The translations under genes and the position numbers were made by a program. A stretch of DNA of 64,000 nucleotides from Radiobacillus kanasensis (GTDB lineage: Bacteria; Bacillota; Bacilli; Bacillales; Amphibacillaceae), in NCBI RefSeq assembly GCF_021049245.1, contig NZ_CP088020.1, positions 3,901,159 through 3,965,158 on the forward strand. The letters are read 5' to 3'. The notes beneath the pieces are model-generated. The model was not told where the DNA came from. It ran no database searches and saw nothing but the letters and a program-made list of their open reading frames with translations. This document shows positions 1 through 10,950 of this stretch, one piece after another (positions within the stretch are counted from its first letter, which is position 1; the number at the start of each line of letters is the position of its first letter).

Positions 1-774
1 AATAGCGTTTAAAACTTTTGATAAAGTGAGATTGATCATAGTACCCGTATTTTGCAGCAATATCAATGAAACTAGACTGAGTACTATAATATAGTTCTCG
101 TAGCAGACTCTGAAATCTGATGATGTCTAAAAGTTCCTTTGGACTGACTCCCAATTCTTTTTGAAACGTTCTCCTTATATTCCTTTCACTGTAGCTAAGT
201 TTTTCTGCCAAGGATCGAATTAAAAGCATTCCCTGATTGTCATACATGTAGCGCATACCTGTTTGTAACAAACAGTCAGTTTGTAATTCATTTAAAAGTA
301 GAAACTCTTTTAGTTTTAATTCAACCCTTTCGATCCTGTCTGAAATTCCAGTTGCTGCTGCTATTTCTTCCATCAAGGAAATTGCAGCATTCCCCCATAT
401 ATCTTCAAGAAACACACGATGTCCAATAAACTCGGAAACGGGATATTTGAAAAATTGCCGTACGGTATCTGAAAAAAGCGAATTCCAAGTAAGGAGTGAT
501 TTTGAGAAAGATTGATAACTTCAAATTTGGTCATCAATCCGACAACAAAGGCTCCTTTGGATAAAGAGGGCGATCTCAGGTCAAATATAATATCCGCGCA
601 ACCATCCAGTATGATACGATGTAATTTATTTGTATTTGACTTATGGAAGTCAAGGGTCCAATAACAAGCAACATAAGATTTCAGACTCTTACTTGGTAAA
701 TATTCTTGATACCGATAATCTGACTGTAATTCTTATTGTAATTTGGGTGGTTGCAAAGGAAGATAAACTTGCAT
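1..774 (-). pseudogene. AraC-family transcriptional regulator, broken and cut by the window edge
   Basis: The reverse strand encodes an AraC-type regulator. The C-terminal double helix-turn-helix is clear (ERNIRRTFQKELGVSPKEL, then FIDIAAKYGYYDQSHFIKSF). The N-terminal part resembles the DUF6597-type domain (DGCADIIFDL; LLGIRFF). A start codon at 774 gives MQVYLPLQPP, but an in-frame TAA follows after about 12 codons. A frameshift in a run of T near position 470-475 separates LLGIRFF from the rest of the domain. The gene runs off the left edge. With one nonsense and one frameshift it cannot make a full protein. Confidence 0.8.
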
Positions 775-957
775 TTTATTTCCCACTTCCTTTAGATTTA
801 TAAATTAAAATATTAGTTTCCCGATATATCAAACTTAAATAGGGTTTCGTTACATCGTTGCGAGTATATTTACCTTTAGTAGCAAGTTGATTTAATCACG
901 TTGGTAGCTGTGGGGAGGTAAGCTTCATAATATCAAAATTTACTTTGTTAATTCTTC

Positions 958-1930
958 TTAAATTTCTTCTTGCAGAAAAAATTTCTTTCCGTCATAATGG
1001 CAGACTTTCATGGTTCCCTTAATATAATTGACATCCTCTTTATCAAACAGCCAAATTTTTACCCTTTAGACCCTTTAAGTTCCTTCTAGTACTTCTATAC
1101 AGAATACCTGAATAACCTTCATTAATCAGATATGTTGCTAAAAGATGGAATGGTCTATATGCATTAAATTCAGTGTCTTCAGACTCATAAACAGGCAGAA
1201 ATACTGCCTCATCAATGCTTTTCATTAGTAGTTTCCCCAAGTATATCTCTGTTTCTTTTTGAATAATTGCTTTAACCTCTTTGCTATCGTTACCCATGTT
1301 TTTTAGTATATCCTTATAAAGGTTGGAGCTCTGGCCTAATTTGGATGTGATTTTAGGATTAGAGAGTATTTCATTAACCTTCTGCTGGGCAAGTTTATTT
1401 AAAACTTGCTCTTGTTCACTTTCTATATCGGAATAATCAATATCCTCATAGCAAAAATTAATTATTTTTGCCTCCCTATTTACTGGTGAGAATTTGCAGA
1501 CTGTTACATCCTCACCTTCTTTTATTCGTAGTTCTTCAGGTCTTCTCTATAGTGTTAATAGCTTCATCATAAAATTGAATGTCTTTCCATACCCCAAATA
1601 CATAAAGGAAAATCCCTCTGGGTTCCACCTGTTCTTACTCTTTGCTTTTATAGGTATCATTCTTTCATAATCATTGAAGTGTCTACCTTTTTGTGCTCTG
1701 TATAAATTATTAAGTTCACCCAATTTTTCAATAAAATTGAGGAGAATTTAGTTAAACAATTCATATGCAAATCATCAAACACATCAATAAATGACTTAAC
1801 ACTGCTTTCGCTGTCATCATTCCAATGTTTAAATATCTGATTTTCGAGATCTTTTCGATATGCTTTATCAAAAAATACTAAAATATCTCCACAAACAAAC
1901 TGACATTTTTTAAAGTGGATAAATATATTT
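958..1930 (-). pseudogene. RES-domain protein, degraded by several frameshifts
   Basis: Fragments in different frames of the reverse strand join into one RES-domain protein. They read LNNLYRAQKGRHFND, then NRWNPEGFSFMYLG, then EDVTVCKFSPV, then FNAYRPFHLLATYLINEGY and GILYRS, and finally LFDKEDVNYIKGTMKVCHYD. RES domains are known as NAD-degrading toxins in some toxin-antitoxin pairs, but larger RES proteins also exist. At least three frame changes are needed (near 1045, 1545-1600 and 1740), so this is a relic. An 84-codon piece at 1043-1297 is only a fragment of it. The upstream limit near 1930 is approximate. No antitoxin was found beside it. Confidence 0.72.
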
Positions 1931-2039
1931 CGAACATATTGTTAATGAAGTGTGTATAGTACTTTGCTAGGCCTTTTGGATGACTTGAAAGGTAATCAGC
2001 TGAAAGTATTTTATAAAAAGTCTTTATTTAAAGCGAAAA

Positions 2040-2204
2040 ATGTTCAAAAGTGGCGAGTTTGCTGTGGCTGTTGAGTTGTTGTTTGTGCATTATTATGATC
2101 CGCGGTATGAGTATTCTGTTGGTTATGCGGGGAACCAACAGATATTCATTAAAGCAGTGAGTGTTGATGAAGTTATTGAGAAGATAAAACGAGGGATTGA
2201 GTAA
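2040..2204 (+). pseudogene. C-terminal remnant resembling tRNA 2-selenouridine synthase (MnmH)
   Basis: A 54-codon open stretch reads MFKSGEFAVAVELLFVHYYD, then PRYEYSVGYAG, and ends KIKRGIE. The YYDPxY signature and the spacing to the end resemble the tail of MnmH/SelU. No rhodanese domain or P-loop precedes it, so only the 3' end of the gene would remain. A stem-loop follows at once, as expected for the end of a former transcription unit. The family call rests on a short motif and could be wrong. Confidence 0.45.
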
Positions 2205-2206
2205 TT

Positions 2207-2231
2207 GGAAGCGCGGGGGTCCTGCGCTTCC
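2207..2231 (+). terminator. GC-rich hairpin after the MnmH-like remnant
   Basis: GGAAGCGC and GCGCTTCC form an 8-bp stem directly after the stop codon of the remnant. There is no clear T-run, so it may be a weak or decayed terminator. Confidence 0.5.
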
Positions 2232-2574
2232 ACTCCTTGTTTGGTATTAGAATTAAATATTAGAGGCTTTTTTTAATAAGGAGCAAGTGTTGGTGCTTTT
2301 TTCCTCACCATTTCCTTCTTTTACTTCACCCCTATTTGTGATACCGTTCACCGTAATGTGGTTAAACGAGGTTATCTATCATCTTCTGCAACAAGTTCCA
2401 CTAAGCGACGATTTAAGTTAGTAAGGATATTTTGCTTAGAATAGTGATACAACTGATTTATCATTTCTTAAGCACTTACAAATTTAGAACCCCATCTAAC
2501 GATTGTGCAGTTAACTGAAATAGCCCTTGACATATTCTATACTCATAATTTATCTCTAAAAATTACAAAGGAGT
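2232..2574. other. Intergenic stretch with no recognisable gene
   Basis: AT-rich sequence between the MnmH-like remnant and the end of the eight-gene operon. A 31-codon minus-strand open stretch near 2380-2475 (MINQLYHYSKQN...) has no family I recognise and is probably a relic. I see no convincing terminator for the operon that ends at 2575. Confidence 0.5.
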
Positions 2575-3507
2575 CTAAAATCTTTCTTTGAACCAAAGAA
2601 ATGCACTATACCCAATAAGATTTTTGGGCAAGTATTCTATAGCAGTATTCGAATCAATATCACCAATTTTATATTGATTATAGAGCTTAAATAATTTCTG
2701 ATAAGGTTCACATACTTGATTATATAAACGATTAATCATTTTATCATGTTCTACATTTATAAAAGTTGAAATATCAAAACTCTCCTTTTCTAAATATAAT
2801 TCATTAATTACTTGAGGGTTGTTTTTCTCAACTATTATTTTAACTTTTTCAAAGTGCTTCGAATATAAATGTAGTGAATCAGTAAAATGCCTTTGATGAC
2901 CAACTTTACAATTAATTTGTTCTGCAATATAGCTTTGTAATAAATAGAAAACTAATACATTATAAGGTACACCTAAATACACATCATTTGATCTATTAAT
3001 AACAGTCATATCTAATTGACTATCTCGTATTTTTAACATTATCGATACGTTACAAGGAATATCTTTTGAATCATAACCTAAATCCCTACTACTCCACATT
3101 GTTAAAACTACTCTTCTTGTAGATTTATCTTTCTTTAAGACTGATATAGCTTTTCGAATTTGGTCTTGACCGTTAAGAGTCCTTAATCGATAGCCATAAG
3201 CCCCGTAAAGTGTTTGTCCATCATCAGAAAATTGATTATAATTCTTAATAAAGTAATTTAAAGGTTCTAACTCATTTGAACCACTGATTAACCAAGAATA
3301 CTCCGTTAAAGCAAAGAAAGGATTAAATCCTCTACCATCTAACAAAGGCATTCTAAAGATATCCTTATTGGTAATCTCAAAGTAGGCAGGTCCTAAATCT
3401 CGGACATCTCCATTCCTAGAATTAGTAATAGATATGGTGCTGTTTAATGATTCTTTTAATAGGTTGTAATAAACTTCACTAAAATTATTACCTAGTACAG
3501 TGAGCAA
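2575..3507 (-). CDS. Thymidylate synthase-like enzyme (pyrimidine hydroxymethylase superfamily), last gene of the operon
   Basis: The 310-residue protein keeps the thymidylate synthase core. It has Glu69 in ALTEYSWLISG, YGAYGYRLR (101-109), the Arg pair 131-132, nucleophile Cys152 in DIPCNVS, RSNDVYLGVPYN (172-183) and HFTDSLHLY (207-215). Asn183 matches the uracil-reading Asn of ThyA. The usual PCH is PCN. The early TNSRNGDVRDLG block is more like phage and antibiotic-cluster hydroxymethylases (the MilA type) than housekeeping ThyA. It may therefore methylate or hydroxymethylate a dUMP/UMP-like substrate. The start is TTG, chosen because GGGGAG lies 6 nt upstream. It follows the phosphopantetheinyl transferase after 25 nt. 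Confidence is high for the superfamily and low for the exact reaction. Confidence 0.85.
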   Translation of the reverse strand: MLTVLGNNFSEVYYNLLKESLNSTISITNSRNGDVRDLGPAYFEITNKDIFRMPLLDGRGFNPFFALTEYSWLISGSNELEPLNYFIKNYNQFSDDGQTLYGAYGYRLRTLNGQDQIRKAISVLKKDKSTRRVVLTMWSSRDLGYDSKDIPCNVSIMLKIRDSQLDMTVINRSNDVYLGVPYNVLVFYLLQSYIAEQINCKVGHQRHFTDSLHLYSKHFEKVKIIVEKNNPQVINELYLEKESFDISTFINVEHDKMINRLYNQVCEPYQKLFKLYNQYKIGDIDSNTAIEYLPKNLIGYSAFLWFKERF

Positions 3508-3532
3508 AGGTATCTCCCCAATATAAAGACTT

Positions 3533-4213
3533 TTATAATTTTACAGCTACACTTAATACAAAATCAGAATACTTATCCCAATAGCCTATCCCTTCGTTAT
3601 TCATAAAGGAAAACTTAAACTGTTTTTCTTCAAATAAAATAGTGTGTATCCTTATATCAAATACTGATTCTACATTGTAACCATAAGAAGATAAACACTT
3701 ATAACAAGCTTCTTTAGAACTCCAAGCAATAGTTAACAATGTATGTATATCTTCATATGAAGTTTCCCTTAGCCACAATTCCTTTTCACGTTCACACAAA
3801 AAAAAGTTGGGGAATTTATGGTGCCTAATTTTAATTTTTTCTATGTCGCAGCCTATAGAATTAAATTTCGAGCTAGAACAAGAAAACCCTATACCTCTAC
3901 AATGTGCGATAGAAAATCTTATATTATTATCATAATTAAATAGATAAGGTGAACCATTTCTCCTATTTTTAATATTTAATAATTTTATATCTTCATTGTC
4001 TAAACCTAGGCACCTTATAATTGAATATTTTGCAGTAATTCTACCAGCCACCCAATTACAACCGTTTCTTAAGAACCTCTTATTACTTTCCCATAAGTCT
4101 AGCTCGTCTTTATGCAAACAATTTAAGTCTTCAGTAGTATATCCCTTAATAAATGCGTGTACTTTTTTATTTAGGAGCTTAGAGCTACTTTTATTTATTA
4201 GAACATCAAGCAT
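3533..4213 (-). CDS. Sfp-type 4'-phosphopantetheinyl transferase
   Basis: This family moves phosphopantetheine from CoA to a carrier-protein serine. With ATG at 4213 (GGTGGAG upstream) the protein has 226 residues. A longer frame from 4255 would overlap the upstream gene by 50 nt and has no ribosome-binding site. Family motifs in order are NWVAGRITAKYSI (53-65), NGSPYLF (86-92), RFSIAHC (99-105), the metal-binding Asp123 and Glu125 in SIGCDIEKI, and WSSKEACYK (164-172) with Glu168 and Lys172. It starts 5 nt before the stop-proximal end of the upstream TS-like gene and is clearly co-transcribed. The obvious partner is the small carrier-like protein encoded earlier in the operon. A broader role on other carrier proteins cannot be excluded. 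Confidence 0.9.
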   Translation of the reverse strand: MLDVLINKSSSKLLNKKVHAFIKGYTTEDLNCLHKDELDLWESNKRFLRNGCNWVAGRITAKYSIIRCLGLDNEDIKLLNIKNRRNGSPYLFNYDNNIRFSIAHCRGIGFSCSSSKFNSIGCDIEKIKIRHHKFPNFFLCEREKELWLRETSYEDIHTLLTIAWSSKEACYKCLSSYGYNVESVFDIRIHTILFEEKQFKFSFMNNEGIGYWDKYSDFVLSVAVKL

Positions 4214-4967
4214 CAAAATTAAGCTCCACCTGTTTCTGATTAGTACATATGTCAATCATTTCGGTAAAATTCGCCTTCGGACTTATAGAGCCTAAGTCAG
4301 CGTGAGTTGCGATACATGTTAGTTTTCCAACCTTATAACCAGCCTCTTTAGCAATAAATTCTAATAATCTACCCAATCCAAGGTAATTACCATAAGCTTT
4401 TTGAACAAAGTATTGGTTTCTGTAGATAGCAGTTAAATCTACAAACTCTTTTCTAACTTTTACACTTATAAAACTCATACAAGGAAAACCCATCTGGTTA
4501 TTAAGGTCTAGAATTGGATCATATATAGACATTTCGTACATAACCCTTATACCTCTACCATTTTCTTTTTCTCTATTTAGTTTGAAGATAGTATTTTCAA
4601 CTTGATTAAAACATTTATCTGTTCCATAACCCCATTGAACTAATCTTCCAAAGTAAGTTCCTTTATTATTTTCTGGAACTTTCCTTAACGTTGGATATAC
4701 TTTAATAAACCTTTCATATAAGTTATCTCTATTTTCGCTTTTAGACCAAATTCCATAGGGGAAAATTGTATTTGAAACAGTTTCAATACTTTGATCCCCC
4801 ATACCCAATAGGACACTATTAAACTGCCTTCTCGTCTCTAAGTCATCTTTTGTAGGATCTTCAATCTCAACTATTAGATTATAATCTTCTCTACCATTCT
4901 GTAGTAAATGATTAATTGATTTTTTCCATGCATCAGTGATATTATCACCCTTAATAACTTTATTCAT
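4206..4967 (-). CDS. Divergent thymidylate synthase-superfamily protein
   Basis: The 253-residue protein belongs to a branch of the thymidylate synthase/pyrimidine hydroxymethylase fold that differs strongly from ThyA. A candidate nucleophile is Cys163 in MGFPCMSFISVKV. LTAIYRNQYFVQKAYGNYLG (178-197) takes the place of the RSxDxxLGxPFN block, with Asn194 in the position of the base-reading Asn. THADLG (221-226) sits where ThyA has its HxY. An early TYFGRLVQWG (104-113) resembles the YGxxxR block. ATG 4967 has AAGGGGG 7 nt upstream, overlapping the stop of the peptidase gene. Together with the second TS-like enzyme it gives the operon two non-identical members of one superfamily. Substrate unknown. 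Confidence 0.75.
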   Translation of the reverse strand: MNKVIKGDNITDAWKKSINHLLQNGREDYNLIVEIEDPTKDDLETRRQFNSVLLGMGDQSIETVSNTIFPYGIWSKSENRDNLYERFIKVYPTLRKVPENNKGTYFGRLVQWGYGTDKCFNQVENTIFKLNREKENGRGIRVMYEMSIYDPILDLNNQMGFPCMSFISVKVRKEFVDLTAIYRNQYFVQKAYGNYLGLGRLLEFIAKEAGYKVGKLTCIATHADLGSISPKANFTEMIDICTNQKQVELNFDA

Positions 4968-4969
4968 AG

Positions 4970-5641
4970 TTATGCCCCCTTAGGAATAGTCCAGGTTCCA
5001 ACACTATATTTTGCAAAATATTCATAGGAAACATATGCGTAACCATTATCTCCCCAATCTGTACTCCAACTATTTCTAATAATAAAACATTTTTTTCCGT
5101 CATTTCGTTCTCCATAACCTACAATAACAATTGCATGATAACCTTCAACAGATTCAATGGAAGGGACATCTATAAAATCATTACCAGGAGATAACCAAAA
5201 TGTTGGTTGTACTACAACACCAGCGATTACAGACCGTTCTTCACTAAGTTGGGTTTCTATGTCACTTATAATCTGGCTAACTGTACTATATGATGTTATT
5301 TTTCTGGTTTCAGCTTCAGTAAATATTCCTTTTGGAATATCTTTTAGTAATAACGGAAATTTCAAAGTTTCTCTGTAGGGTAATAAATCATTTGTTGTAT
5401 GACCATAAAGACAAATTGATTTTAATGCTGTAATTATACTAACTCCTTTATCATCGTAAGTTCCTTGGAGTGACTTTGCACAGCTAAATAGGAACTCTTC
5501 TGACAATCGCTCATCTAAGTTTCTGTGATGCTCGTGACTAGAAGTAACTGCAAATGCAGTACATGTTCCTCTTCGACCTTGATCTCTTACTTCTGGTAAA
5601 CTATACCTTAAATCGACTGTAAATTTGTATTTTTGACTCAT
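4970..5641 (-). CDS. C1 (papain-type) cysteine peptidase without signal or pro-domain
   Basis: The 223-residue protein has the complete papain catalytic set. The oxyanion Gln21 and nucleophile Cys27 lie in VRDQGRRGTCTAFAV, His169 in EGYHAIVIVGYG, and Asn190 in CFIIRNSWSTDWGDNGY. It starts almost directly at the mature-domain position (FTVDLRYSLPEVRDQG), so there is no signal peptide and no inhibitory pro-peptide, and it should be a cytoplasmic, constitutively folded protease. Control must come from elsewhere. The gene just upstream encodes a chagasin-type inhibitor of exactly this peptidase class, which is the natural candidate. Spacing to that gene is 18 nt and to the downstream TS-like gene 2 nt. 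Confidence 0.92.
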   Translation of the reverse strand: MSQKYKFTVDLRYSLPEVRDQGRRGTCTAFAVTSSHEHHRNLDERLSEEFLFSCAKSLQGTYDDKGVSIITALKSICLYGHTTNDLLPYRETLKFPLLLKDIPKGIFTEAETRKITSYSTVSQIISDIETQLSEERSVIAGVVVQPTFWLSPGNDFIDVPSIESVEGYHAIVIVGYGERNDGKKCFIIRNSWSTDWGDNGYAYVSYEYFAKYSVGTWTIPKGA

Positions 5642-5659
5642 AATCTGAAATAAACCCCT

Positions 5660-6628
5660 TTAAGCAACCAAATTATTTATGTGAATGCCATGTCTCTTCT
5701 TCTGAACTGAAATATTTAAATTGAACATATTTATCGAATCAGATAAAGGTCGCCAAGGTCGATTATTATATAAATTCAATTTTATATCCTGAATTTCCTC
5801 AATTTTCAATATAATATTTCTAATACCGGATCCACCAAACAAACTACTATCTTCATGAAACGAATTCCAAAAAGTAGTTACACCCTCGATATCCGGAGAG
5901 ATTATCCACTTATATCCAGTCGTTGGATTCTCCTCCAACAATATTCTTACTTCGTCACCAACATTTGGATAAATTGTACTGTTTTTCTCTTCCTCCGATA
6001 AAATCCAAATATTATTCCAACTTGAAGAAAGTTTATCAATTCCATACTCTTTTTTAATTTCTATTGGTTCTACGTCTAATTCAGCATATTTTTTCGTTGT
6101 TTTAATAATGTTTAAAGTAAATAGTCTATTTAATGTAGCCTGGTAACTAGTCCCCATTCGTAAAGAAAGGTCATAAACAGTTCTAGGATTAATTAATTCA
6201 CTATCCCTTATACCTATGTTTTTATGGATACTCATTACTAGTCTTCTAGGCATTAGTAAACAAGAAGCAAATTCTTCTGCGATTCTCTCTTTATCTTCTC
6301 TTTTATAACTTTCATAAAATAGCTCTTCTGAGGTATCAAAACTTGCTGAATCTCCCCTTATAAAATGACAAAATTCATGTGCTGCTGTATACCTTTGTCG
6401 AGTTAATGGTAGGTTCTCATTTATCAAAATTCCTGCCCGTCTCTCTTCTGTCTCAGGTATATATGCACCAGCTAAATTCTCTAGTCTCTGAAAATTTAAA
6501 ACTACATTATAATTATCAATTATCTTGAATATGTCTACTGGTTCTGTCAGAGATACTTTGCATTTTGCTAAAACTCTCGAAGCCTCTGCGAAGGCTGTTT
6601 TAATTATTTCTGTTCTAGATAAACTCAT
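5660..6628 (-). CDS. ImmA/IrrE-type metallopeptidase fused to a chagasin-like (I42) cysteine protease inhibitor domain
   Basis: The 322-residue protein has two parts. Residues 1 to about 180 are an ImmA/IrrE zinc peptidase with RYTAAHEFCHFIRGD (His84, Glu85, His88) and a downstream EEFASCLLMP helix (118-127). The C-terminal part, about 205-310, carries the three chagasin loops: ENPTTGYKW (233-241), FGGSG (264-268) and NNRPWRP (288-294). Chagasin-family proteins block papain-type peptidases with these loops. ImmA-type peptidases typically cleave a partner XRE repressor. The gene lies between an XRE regulator and a C1 peptidase, so both domains have their expected partners next door. The start ATG has AGGGGTG upstream. 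Finding both activities in one chain is unusual. Confidence 0.9.
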   Translation of the reverse strand: MSLSRTEIIKTAFAEASRVLAKCKVSLTEPVDIFKIIDNYNVVLNFQRLENLAGAYIPETEERRAGILINENLPLTRQRYTAAHEFCHFIRGDSASFDTSEELFYESYKREDKERIAEEFASCLLMPRRLVMSIHKNIGIRDSELINPRTVYDLSLRMGTSYQATLNRLFTLNIIKTTKKYAELDVEPIEIKKEYGIDKLSSSWNNIWILSEEEKNSTIYPNVGDEVRILLEENPTTGYKWIISPDIEGVTTFWNSFHEDSSLFGGSGIRNIILKIEEIQDIKLNLYNNRPWRPLSDSINMFNLNISVQKKRHGIHINNLVA

Positions 6629-6638
6629 TGTTACACCC

Positions 6639-6944
6639 CTATTTCATGTTTGAAAGTATGTATGAAAACCTCATAACATGTTCACGATCATTATCTGATA
6701 AATCAGAAGTTGCTCGGGCCATAACTTCAACATCAGATTTAAAACTATAATCGCTATCTAAAAAATAATAAATGGAGTGCTTATATAACTTTGATAACTT
6801 CTCTAAATCCTCTGTTTTTGGTTTCAACTGACCATTTTCGATTTTTGTCAAGTATTCTAAGGGAAGATTTATGATTTCTGCAACAGATTCTAAAGTTAAC
6901 CCAACGTAATCACGTGCATTAGTTAATCTTTTATTTATATTCAT
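6639..6944 (-). CDS. XRE-family helix-turn-helix regulator
   Basis: The 101-residue protein has a classic XRE DNA-binding domain at residues 3-60 (LTLESVAEIINLPLEYLTKI, then ENGQLKPKTEDLEKLSKLY) and a short C-terminal tail. ATG 6944 is chosen because GGAGGGG lies 5 nt upstream. A longer frame from 6965 lacks a site. The start overlaps the end of the carrier-protein gene by 14 nt, so translation is probably coupled. In ImmA/XRE pairs the XRE protein represses its own operon and is cleaved by the peptidase on induction. That is the expected relation to the next gene, by analogy only. Confidence 0.88.
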   Translation of the reverse strand: MNINKRLTNARDYVGLTLESVAEIINLPLEYLTKIENGQLKPKTEDLEKLSKLYKHSIYYFLDSDYSFKSDVEVMARATSDLSDNDREHVMRFSYILSNMK

Positions 6945-7194
6945 TTTTCCCCTCCAAGATCTCATCTATTAGTGTACAAAAGTCTCTGAAAGAAGATTTA
7001 ACACGTTTATGCACTTCTTTTACTGGTATATTAATGCTCATATCTTCTTCTAACATACCGATTATTTCCAAAAAAAAGATTGACTCTACATCTGTATCAC
7101 CAAAATCATGAATTTCATTAATAATTCTTTCCGCACTATCACCACAAATATCTTCAAGATAGTTTGCGATTTTCTCAACTAATTCTTCTTGCAT
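6931..7194 (-). CDS. Small acyl-carrier-like (phosphopantetheine-binding) protein
   Basis: An 87-residue acidic helical protein with an ACP-like core: FGDTDVESIFFLEIIGMLEE followed by SINIPVKEV. The Ser in VESI lines up with the phosphopantetheine serine of the DSL motif (residue 38 from the start used here). The Asp before it is replaced by Glu. Start ATG 7194 fits AAAGG about 9 nt upstream. ATG 7203 lies directly on that site and is less likely. The phosphopantetheinyl transferase in the same operon supports a real carrier function. No adenylation, ketosynthase or thioesterase gene is present here, so what it carries is unknown. Confidence 0.75.
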   Translation of the reverse strand: MQEELVEKIANYLEDICGDSAERIINEIHDFGDTDVESIFFLEIIGMLEEDMSINIPVKEVHKRVKSSFRDFCTLIDEILEGKNEYK

Positions 7195-7213
7195 TTGTAT
7201 CATCCTTTATTTT

Positions 7214-7840
7214 CTACTTAATTTGAGAGTCAATTATCTGTATGATATCTTTATGTAATGATTGAACATCCTTTGTGCCATCAACAATCTTGACCCTATT
7301 TGGGTCTTTCTCAGCAGTGTATAAAAAGCCGTCACGAACTCTACTTTGAAAATCTACTTTTTCCAAATCGAATTTGTCCATGGTTTTATTATCCCTTAAT
7401 GCAATTCTTTTCTCAGCAATTTCTGGCTCTATATCTATCAAAATAGTTATATCTGGTTTTTTGTTATCAGTCGCAAGATTTGTTAAAGTACTAATCATAT
7501 TGATATCAAGACCTCTTCCAAATCCTTGGTAGGCTATAGAACCATCTATACCTCTGTCACTAATGGTAATTATTCCTTCTTTAATATTAGGCTCTACAAT
7601 CTTCTTAAATGTCTCATGTCTATCAGCTTCAAATAAAAATAACTCAGATAAACTTTCTGGTTTAACATCTAAATTAATTACGAGGATATTTCTTAGTAAA
7701 CCACCTATTACAGTTCCACCTGGTTCTTTTGTTAATACTACATTCATTGACTGTTTTTTAAAGTATTCATACAAAAAATCCGCTTGAGTCGACTTTCCAG
7801 ATCCACCAATTCCCTCAAAAGTAATCCATAGTCCCATCAT
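7214..7840 (-). CDS. tmk: dTMP kinase-like nucleoside monophosphate kinase, first gene of the operon
   Basis: This Tmk-family protein of about 208 residues has the P-loop FEGIGGSGKSTQ near the N-terminus, the DR(Y/G) block ISDRGIDGSIAYQG, and a LID region from EIAEKRIALR to DFQSRVRDGF. Family length is normal. DRG replaces the usual DRY/DRW, so nucleotide preference may differ from standard dTMP kinase. The housekeeping tmk of Bacillaceae lies elsewhere, near dnaX, so this should be an extra copy serving the operon. Of ATG 7846, 7840 and 7837, the one at 7840 has the best spacing to GGAGAG. It could phosphorylate the product of the TS-like enzymes. Confidence 0.85.
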   Translation of the reverse strand: MMGLWITFEGIGGSGKSTQADFLYEYFKKQSMNVVLTKEPGGTVIGGLLRNILVINLDVKPESLSELFLFEADRHETFKKIVEPNIKEGIITISDRGIDGSIAYQGFGRGLDINMISTLTNLATDNKKPDITILIDIEPEIAEKRIALRDNKTMDKFDLEKVDFQSRVRDGFLYTAEKDPNRVKIVDGTKDVQSLHKDIIQIIDSQIK

Positions 7841-7846
7841 TGTCAT

Positions 7847-7925
7847 CTCTCCATTTATAATGATAAATTAATTATACAGTTTTAAAGTATATATAAATAC
7901 CTAAAGACTATAAAAAATGTCTATT
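7847..7925 (-). promoter_or_regulatory. Possible promoter/operator region of the eight-gene operon
   Basis: On the reverse strand a TATAAT (7871-7876) lies about 30 nt before the kinase start, without a good -35. A short inverted repeat AGAC...GTCT (7905-7922) further upstream could be an operator for the XRE protein. Both are weak single-site readings in AT-rich sequence. Confidence 0.3.
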
Positions 7926-8812: not shown

Positions 8813-9340
8813 CTATGACAGCTTAGTTTTGTTCAAAAAGGGTTCTGGGATTTTATCAGCTTTCACATAAAGAGGGTGCCTTGGATATCCATCTCGTGTT
8901 AACTCCAATGTATATATAGGAGTACTAATATCTTTTAACAATTCTAAAACTTCTTTATCTCTATCTAATAAACTCCCTTTAGTCCCCCAAGCAAGTACTA
9001 CTTTATCAGATCTTTTCAAAGCTTCTCTAATATATTCATTATTTTTTTCACCTATAGGATCATACGCTGAAATTAATAACTTAGGATCTGTAGACCTATA
9101 GGCGAAAAGATTTACTACTTCAAGTGATCCATAACCCCATCCCATAGCAAATTTTATACATCTGCGAAGTGTAGGGTCATCTTCTTGGTCATCTGCTGTA
9201 CTAGGGTTTAACATAACAAAAGTAATCCTTGGAAGGTTATCATTCCATATTCTCCACAAAGAGTACCTATATTCTTTCTTTTCATCAATTATAGCACCAC
9301 TAAAATTCTTATTTAATTCATCATGGAATGTTAATTGCAT
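8813..9340 (-). CDS. DUF1643 family protein
   Basis: The 175-residue protein shows the DUF1643 signature ITFVMLNPSTADDQEDDPTL followed by RRCIKFAMGWGYGSLEVVNL and LFAYRSTDP. The biochemical role of the family is unknown. It is often found in mobile regions. The start at 9340 has AGGTGATAAAG upstream. A GTG at 9349 would overlap that site. It has no operon partners: a decayed plus-strand gene lies downstream and a relic region upstream. It is the only intact gene between the eight-gene operon and rlmH. Confidence 0.85.
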   Translation of the reverse strand: MQLTFHDELNKNFSGAIIDEKKEYRYSLWRIWNDNLPRITFVMLNPSTADDQEDDPTLRRCIKFAMGWGYGSLEVVNLFAYRSTDPKLLISAYDPIGEKNNEYIREALKRSDKVVLAWGTKGSLLDRDKEVLELLKDISTPIYTLELTRDGYPRHPLYVKADKIPEPFLNKTKLS

Positions 9341-9524
9341 CTTTATCACCTATTATAATTATAAAAAATTAAATATATTTCATAGTCTTATTTTTATTTT
9401 ACTAATGGATAAGTAACTTAACAAGTAAATAAGGGAATTAATTTGAATATTTCGCCCAACAATCATTGGCAATATAGAATTATTATAATAGGTACAGTAA
9501 ATTTGGAATTACGCCCTAAAAATA

Positions 9525-10470: not shown

Positions 10471-10950
10471 TTACTTATGATACGGTTCCCCCCGATTAAT
10501 CCGAAACGCCCGATAAACCTGCTCCACCAACACCAACCGCATCAGTTGGTGCGGAAACGTCATCTTAGAAAACGACAAAGCAAAGTCACTACGATCCGTC
10601 ACTTCCTTGCTCAACCCCAGTGATCCACCAATCACTAATGCAATTTTACTCTTCCCATGTGTTGCAAGGTTGTCCATCTTTCGAGCTAATCCTTCAGAGG
10701 TCAACATTTCCCCCATTATTTCCAGGGAAATAATGTAGGTATCTGTCGAGATTTTGGAGAGGATTCGTTCTCCTTCTTTTCGCTTTACTTCTTCCGCTTC
10801 GGCATCACTCATGTTTTCTGGCGCCTTTTCATCCGGCACTTCAATAATATCGATATTGGCATAAGCTCCTAGTCGCTTTACATACTCTTGGATGCCTTGC
10901 TTTAAATATTTCTCTTTCAGTTTTCCTACGGCTACAATACTTATCTTCAT
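10471..10950 (-). CDS. rlmH: 23S rRNA (pseudouridine1915-N3)-methyltransferase RlmH
   Basis: The 159-residue protein is a SPOUT-class methyltransferase acting on helix 69 of 23S rRNA. Family marks are [20 protein letters not shown] at the N-terminus, the S-adenosylmethionine-binding knot LVIGGSLGL (105-113), TFPHQLMR (131-138) and the C-terminal [19 protein letters not shown] lies before the ATG. The gene stands alone on the minus strand. Its last codons, CCGTATCATAAGTAA, and the bases after them resemble the 3' end of staphylococcal rlmH, where SCC elements insert. The accessory zone begins right there. Confidence 0.97.

Follow-up and report, generated by a model that had tools for sequence, protein, structure and literature searches.

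Defence by depletion of deoxynucleoside triphosphates (dNTPs) uses dCTP deaminase and dGTPase. In this study, we describe an eight-gene operon of Radiobacillus kanasensis, which lies in a stretch of 64,000 nucleotides (nt) that is hereafter called the window (contig NZ_CP088020.1, positions 3,901,159 to 3,965,158). The operon resembles dNTP-depletion defence in that the nucleotide pool would be its target and dCTP-deaminase-like genes are found near some of its relatives (loci L001, L004 and L040 by profiles, as well as L121 and L125), but there is no deaminase in the window and the core of the cassette is a thymidylate synthase (TS)-like protein with a carrier protein. In its main text, the 2026 defence screen DefensePredictor (PMC13092281) presents validated systems with thymidylate synthase and 5-hydroxymethyldeoxyuridine (5hmdU) kinase domains, and others with MazG, MazG-C and uracil-DNA glycosylase (UDG) that were predicted as defence. 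Its systems with thymidylate synthase, deoxynucleoside monophosphate kinase and 5-hmdU DNA kinase have the same domain types as the cassette, whereas ImmA and the acyl carrier are absent from that main text. The regulatory genes recall the CapH/CapP pair of CBASS (cyclic oligonucleotide-based antiphage signalling systems) and of other immune operons, in which, according to PMC13373217, CapP is activated by single-stranded DNA and cleaves CapH, and immune operons are thereby induced. The operon likewise has an XRE-type regulator beside an ImmA/M78 peptidase, but this ImmA carries an I42 (chagasin) inhibitor domain, a C1 papain-like peptidase is adjacent and a carrier-protein gene lies ahead. 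An earlier note, which was made from the sequence alone, knew of no described system with this gene set, and our literature searches, limited to open-access papers, also found no description of the combination.

We read the operon as an inducible cassette for conflict or stress that moves horizontally and in which a CapH/CapP-like switch would induce pyrimidine-nucleotide chemistry against invaders, and we put the probability of this reading at roughly 0.5. The conservation, co-occurrence, intact active sites and fold on which it is built come from the sequences, and phage defence is what we infer from them. The gene set is compact, its active sites are invariant, and it is found again in several bacterial phyla and in one archaeon; such a cassette would place TS-fold nucleotide enzymes, base-related genes and the chemistry of a carrier protein under the control of a protease switch.

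Distribution and conservation of the cassette

Relatives were collected with the divergent TS-fold protein of the operon, TS2, as the sole bait, and 94 loci were compared: the window, ten plasmid loci, three loci on viral contigs and 80 loci on genome contigs, which were kept for counting from 130 confirmed TS2 relatives. The ten plasmid loci were hand-chosen for variety, from a table showing gene names, among 20 listed matches; TS2 was found in 24 plasmid records in total, 15 of which were typed as conjugative, while a search of phage records with TS2 gave no match. Seeds for the hidden Markov models (HMMs) came from 11 of the 94 loci, and genes were six-frame open reading frames (ORFs). The counts are those of single-pass profiles; an earlier iterated HMM pass drifted, giving thymidylate (TMP) kinase in 59 loci vs 12 in the single pass.

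XRE and ImmA, on the same strand, were present in all 94 loci, the acyl carrier protein (ACP) in 83 and the C1 peptidase in 47. The most frequent partners were MazG-C (85 loci), HMUDK_hel (52), a UDG-like gene (37) and TMP kinase (12), and the rarer ones were AcpS (10), an Sfp-type phosphopantetheinyl transferase (PPTase; five), TS1, which is the other TS-fold protein of the operon (five), and DCD (three). The core genes were co-stranded in every locus and followed the order carrier, XRE, ImmA, (C1), TS2 in 79; TS2 came first in six, and the remaining loci had no ACP call or had overlapping ORF starts in swapped order. Pairwise distance matrices were correlated at 0.76-0.93. As for the 11 loci in which no ACP was called, a carrier-like small ORF was seen by eye in the same slot in L013, L036, L040 and L046 (Pfam 0.046 for L013, no match for L040), the ACP score of L056 (2.3e-5) was just beyond the threshold, and in six actinobacterial loci (L020, L050, L059, L082, L093 and L094) an AcpS gene stood directly before XRE. 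The earlier note asked whether the genes travel together elsewhere. A core of carrier, XRE, ImmA, C1 and TS2 does so and recurs in unrelated hosts, but all eight families together were seen in no loci other than those of Bacillota (L015, L016 and, with additional genes, L017); a haloarchaeal locus (L005) had seven of the eight, with TS1 missing. In L017 (Paenibacillus koleovorans; 3154-5387), two TS2 copies lie on either side of the PPTase gene.

The hosts, whose taxonomy we read from record titles and annotations, were mainly Actinomycetota and Pseudomonadota, followed by Bacillota, Cyanobacteriota, Acidobacteria, Armatimonadota, a metagenome-assembled genome (MAG) of Phycisphaerae, a MAG labelled Deltaproteobacteria and one haloarchaeon. 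Among 100 genomes searched near the host, TS2 occurred only in the window's own genome. Among 398 genomes of the class, 19 passed E <= 0.001, and only the window's own genome and G294, whose locus also has ImmA, C1, PPTase and TS1, did so at about 1e-104; the weaker 17 matches are presumably ordinary ThyA. The E. coli genomes searched with one 3201-base query gave no match. This scattered occurrence is like that of mobile genes.

The view that the operon is under selection agrees with the ratio of nonsynonymous to synonymous substitution rates (dN/dS), which was 0.06-0.19 against Neobacillus soli (L015) for nine genes and 0.11-0.22 against Halobacillus salinus (L016) for the seven of nine genes where dS was computable. 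Purifying selection on the operon is supported by these values.

Outside the 94, another thirteen plasmid loci (L117-L129) were selected by hand. One of them, L121 (Rhizobium), was considered as a core without TS2, which was rejected once an ORF check revealed a TS2 split over two frames; such a split TS2 is present in two Rhizobium ruizarguesonis plasmids (L121, 4681-5515; L129, 7635-8394).

Regulatory and protease genes

An XRE gene adjacent to an M78 peptidase gene with an intact HExxH motif was found in 94 of 94 loci; in XRE, R84 was kept in all of them and D93 in 93. The best PADLOC match of the window ImmA was capP, whereas for the window XRE protein RmrA and HTH_VI (3.5e-9) outscored capH. 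The spr1629 repressor/antitoxin of NCBIfam was a weak match for both proteins. None of the nine window proteins scanned was a CD-NTase, the window has no CBASS core, and membership in CBASS was dropped.

In the C1 peptidase, C27, H169, N190 and Q21 were kept in 47/47 sequences. An I42 profile that was built from the ImmA tails of four Bacillota loci (the window and L015-L017) found, in the first pass, 47/47 loci with the C1 gene vs 2/47 loci without it. In later passes it also reached 35/47 tails of the latter, mostly actinobacterial, which we read as diverged I42-like domains; in loci lacking C1, the domain may thus be ancient and altered. Motif expressions for I42 matched 42/47 loci with C1 vs 4/47 without in the loosest form and 17/47 vs 2/47 in a tighter one, and the literal chagasin motif matched 2/47 vs 0/47. 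Since the I42 profile tracks the C1 gene, an inhibitor-protease pair is pointed to, in which the I42 domain of ImmA would inhibit the neighbouring C1 peptidase; it is a clean pair for testing. L050 and L059 have an I42 tail and no C1 match, and the ORF downstream in L059 had no Pfam match.

Seven plasmid loci were viewed among 39 records with C1. The cassette was present in L121, L125 and L129, C1 and I42 alone in L122 and L128, and neither in L126 and L127. C1 peptidase genes lie near stand-alone I42 genes in L122 (Priestia plasmid, 4902-6096) and L128 (Deinococcus plasmid, 5725-7639), and caspase-family genes also adjoin in the latter.

Nucleotide and base enzymes

The catalytic Cys of TS2 was invariant (94/94). 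C163, R183 and N194 of TS2 align with C200, R220 and N231 of ThyA, which are known as the catalytic Cys, the substrate Arg and the base-recognition Asn, whereas Y186 and A223/L225 occupy the positions of the ThyA residues that bind the pterin (Asp) and form the His/Tyr pair. In TS1, the canonical Cys, Arg, Asp, Asn and His/Tyr were invariant in an alignment of five TS1 proteins and the genome's ThyA, and Ser41 of the carrier was invariant in 83/83. The earlier note had reported all catalytic residues that it could check as present, which needs a correction for TS2: it has the Cys, Arg and Asn and lacks the pterin-binding Asp and the His/Tyr pair.

The predicted model of TS2 has an AfhB-type fold; its nearest solved folds were AfhB, a flavin-dependent dCMP hydroxylase, and MilA, a CMP hydroxymethylase, with folate TS ranking behind them. 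TS2 differs from AfhB (phage HY126; PDB 9iqu and 9iqc, names as in the PDB titles) in having Asn194 where AfhB has an Asp, as judged by eye from residue spacing, and an Asn at this base-recognition position suggests uracil rather than dCMP as the substrate base. In an E. coli IncHI1B plasmid (L117, 4990-7921), genes for a metallophosphoesterase, an unknown protein and MazG accompany a TS that shares ~55% identity with TS1 across 68% of its length, and in a Streptococcus salivarius plasmid (L119, 5812-11293) TS, kinase-like ATPase, PqqD-family and CYTH genes are clustered.

Either HMUDK_hel or a UDG-like gene was present in 89 of the 94 loci and never both together. The UDG-like genes were on the opposite strand in 37/37 cases, at a median of 23 nt from TS2. 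Four of the five loci with neither gene (window, L013, L015 and L016) have a DUF1643 gene, which occurs in one of the 89 others (L048; Fisher 8e-6 for the slot association, with three of the four slot carriers being Bacillota and hence not independent). The DUF1643 gene of the window is thus probably a ninth member that stands in for UDG-like or HMUDK_hel genes. The family is large (7863 proteins), and its treatment as a proven glycosylase was dropped. Because the DUF1643 gene is intact, the surroundings of the operon are not all decayed, contrary to what the earlier note had stated.

The UDG-like family, whose name comes from plasmid annotations, was weak to Pfam (1.1e-4, below the cut-off, for the one member scanned), and its placement by PDB sequence, where the TM0511 UDG scored E 0.14, was dropped. 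HMUDK_hel is PF18723, '5-hmdU DNA kinase, helical domain'; a fold for it was likewise dropped, since among PDB sequences it found only aquaporins, with E values of 0.14 and above. Some loci have HMUDK_hel genes but no cassette (L118, L120, L123 and L124), and a TIR-domain gene stands beside HMUDK_hel in L120 (Sinorhizobium, 517-7086), with a thymidylate synthase, and in L124 (Parabacteroides, 4835-7925), with a radical SAM gene. By their domain matches, the genes beside the core would handle pyrimidine nucleotides (TS1, TMP kinase, MazG-C and sometimes dCTP deaminase) and would excise or modify bases (UDG-like, HMUDK_hel and perhaps DUF1643).

Possible function

The two hypotheses of the earlier note, a modified-nucleotide pathway and a stress or phage-defence unit, both retain support, the former from the nucleotide and base-gene partners and the latter from a regulator pair that is like a known immunity switch. 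In the inducible cassette that we propose, repression by the XRE protein would last until it is cleaved by ImmA, which, as CapP does, would respond to a signal, for instance, single-stranded DNA that arises in phage replication or through damage. Once induced, the TS-fold enzymes and the kinase would alter the dUMP/dTTP pool, for example, by making a 5-substituted dUMP together with its triphosphate or by dTTP starvation, and the paired glycosylase-like enzyme would attack DNA that had incorporated the altered base. The operon's own PPTase would charge the carrier with phosphopantetheine, the carrier would serve TS2 chemistry or regulation, and the I42 domain would hold back the C1 peptidase, which would act as an effector or as a further switch. 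The role of the carrier is the weakest point of this mechanism and counts against it. A more specific immune strategy is improbable in its entirety: phage replication would free the repressor that ImmA holds, TS2 would make a 5-substituted dUMP, for which it may use flavin and the carrier in place of folate, the kinase would feed this product into replicating DNA, the paired base-excision enzyme would then destroy the DNA so altered, and I42 would free C1 as a second blow. Should the cassette serve in defence, it would broaden the immunity that is based on nucleotides and supply an enzyme whose product may be a pyrimidine not known so far.

The same enzymes might instead serve DNA hypermodification, with the TS enzymes and the kinase making a modified thymine precursor, HMUDK_hel-type enzymes finishing it in the DNA and the carrier delivering a group, so that the mark would shield the plasmid or the host instead of attacking invaders. 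Such a role agrees with the HMUDK_hel genes in 52/94 loci, with one plasmid annotation that reads 'putative DNA base hypermodification protein' and with the resemblance of TS2 to AfhB and MilA. We consider it rather unlikely, however, because 37/94 loci have a UDG-like gene without HMUDK_hel, the window has neither, and inducible XRE/ImmA control with a protease pair would suit a constitutive mark poorly. It is also unlikely that the operon is a DNA-damage or plasmid-maintenance stress module of a toxin-antitoxin-like kind, which would halt growth via the thymidylate pool and would not be directed at phages: ImmA/XRE pairs also govern mobile elements and damage responses, and the weak spr1629 matches and the plasmid location are in line with such a module, but active sites that are invariant in several families of enzymes, together with paired base and nucleotide genes, exceed the need of a simple toxin-antitoxin system. 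It is very improbable that a small product or signal of the nucleoside type is made on the carrier, in the manner of the nucleoside antibiotic clusters with MilA-like enzymes, since clustering of the unassigned neighbouring ORFs, with crude gene calls, gave no further recurrent gene recognised as biosynthetic, and the same compact set stands beside base-related genes in many hosts.

Operon structure and genomic context

Table 1. Features of the operon and its surroundings, in ascending window coordinates.
Feature	Position	Strand	Evidence
SCC-type att-like site beyond operon 3' end	2332..2349	-	2 mismatches to att consensus
TS1, phage-type thymidylate synthase / dUMP hydroxymethylase-like enzyme	2575..3507	-	PF00303 9.5e-33; phrog_5131 6.8e-65
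Sfp-type phosphopantetheinyl transferase (ACPS-superfamily PPTase)	3533..4255	-	PF01648 3.1e-12
TS2, divergent TS-fold protein, cassette marker, catalytic Cys163	4206..4967	-	Pfam TS 1.7e-4; TIGR03283 3.5e-18
C1 papain-like peptidase	4970..5641	-	PF00112 (Peptidase_C1) 2.9e-22
ImmA/M78 metallopeptidase fused to I42 (chagasin) inhibitor domain	5660..6628	-	PF06114 4.9e-15; PF09394 1e-9; PADLOC capP 1.4e-22
XRE regulator, presumed repressor cleaved by ImmA	6639..6965	-	HTH_3 3.9e-8; PADLOC RmrA 7e-10, capH 2.9e-8
Carrier protein (ACP-like), phosphopantetheine Ser41	6931..7203	-	PP-binding 0.0034; NCBIfam ACP 2.8e-6
dTMP kinase paralogue	7214..7846	-	PF02223 2.7e-48
DUF1643 gene, probable ninth member	8813..9349	-	PF07799 1.5e-51; 966 nt upstream of TMP kinase gene
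rlmH (named from sequence alone)	10471..10950	-	ORF; 3' end carries att-like site 10471-10488

Domains were called with Pfam and NCBIfam, and PADLOC and phrog matches were also used (Table 1). The ORF and domain calls bear out the eight minus-strand genes of the earlier note, their order and their short gaps or overlaps: all eight ORFs are intact (window 2575-7846) and follow each other with 25 nt, an overlap, 2, 18 and 10 nt, an overlap and 10 nt. The PPTase gene has a likely ATG start at 4213, as judged by eye. The Pfam score of TS2 was 21.3 bits, under the cut-off of 24.3, its TIGR03283 score was likewise under the cut-off, and the two matches of the carrier protein were weak, both being below their cut-offs. 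The host genome also holds its own full-length TS (ThyA; contig C1, 1939932), other TMP kinase-family matches (contig C2, 7196 and, weaker, contig C1, 24219) and, as the sole other PF01648 match, a 124-codon frame (contig C1, 422946); because of these family members elsewhere, the TS, TMP kinase and PPTase of the operon were taken as paralogues. The operon has a guanine-cytosine content of 31.1% vs 38.8% for window 10471-64000. A scan for sigma-70 promoters gave nothing above chance (31 found vs 37.3 in shuffles).

The operon and the DUF1643 gene lie between the att-like site of the staphylococcal cassette chromosome (SCC) type and the 3' end of rlmH. In the window and 40 kb upstream (L095, L096), seven att-like sites including that of rlmH itself were found, reaching 36 kb upstream and all on the operon side of rlmH, vs 0.59 expected for the consensus; none of 300 mononucleotide shuffles, which keep base composition only, reached seven. 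No large serine recombinase (ccr) was found near the operon, which is at ~3.9 Mb, the two Resolvase-family matches of the genome being at 1.81 and 0.97 Mb, and an SCC cassette as the full explanation was dropped because no recombinase is nearby. Among ten neighbour proteins in six plasmid loci, which were picked by annotation and had no control set, five, which come from four of these loci, had PADLOC matches at 1e-10; matches to helicase, kinase and ATPase models can be generic. Beyond the 3' end of the operon, a short ORF (window 2040-2204) looks by eye like the C-terminal end of a rhodanese-type (SelU-like) gene (L096, 6226-7263), of which it is apparently a decayed duplicate.

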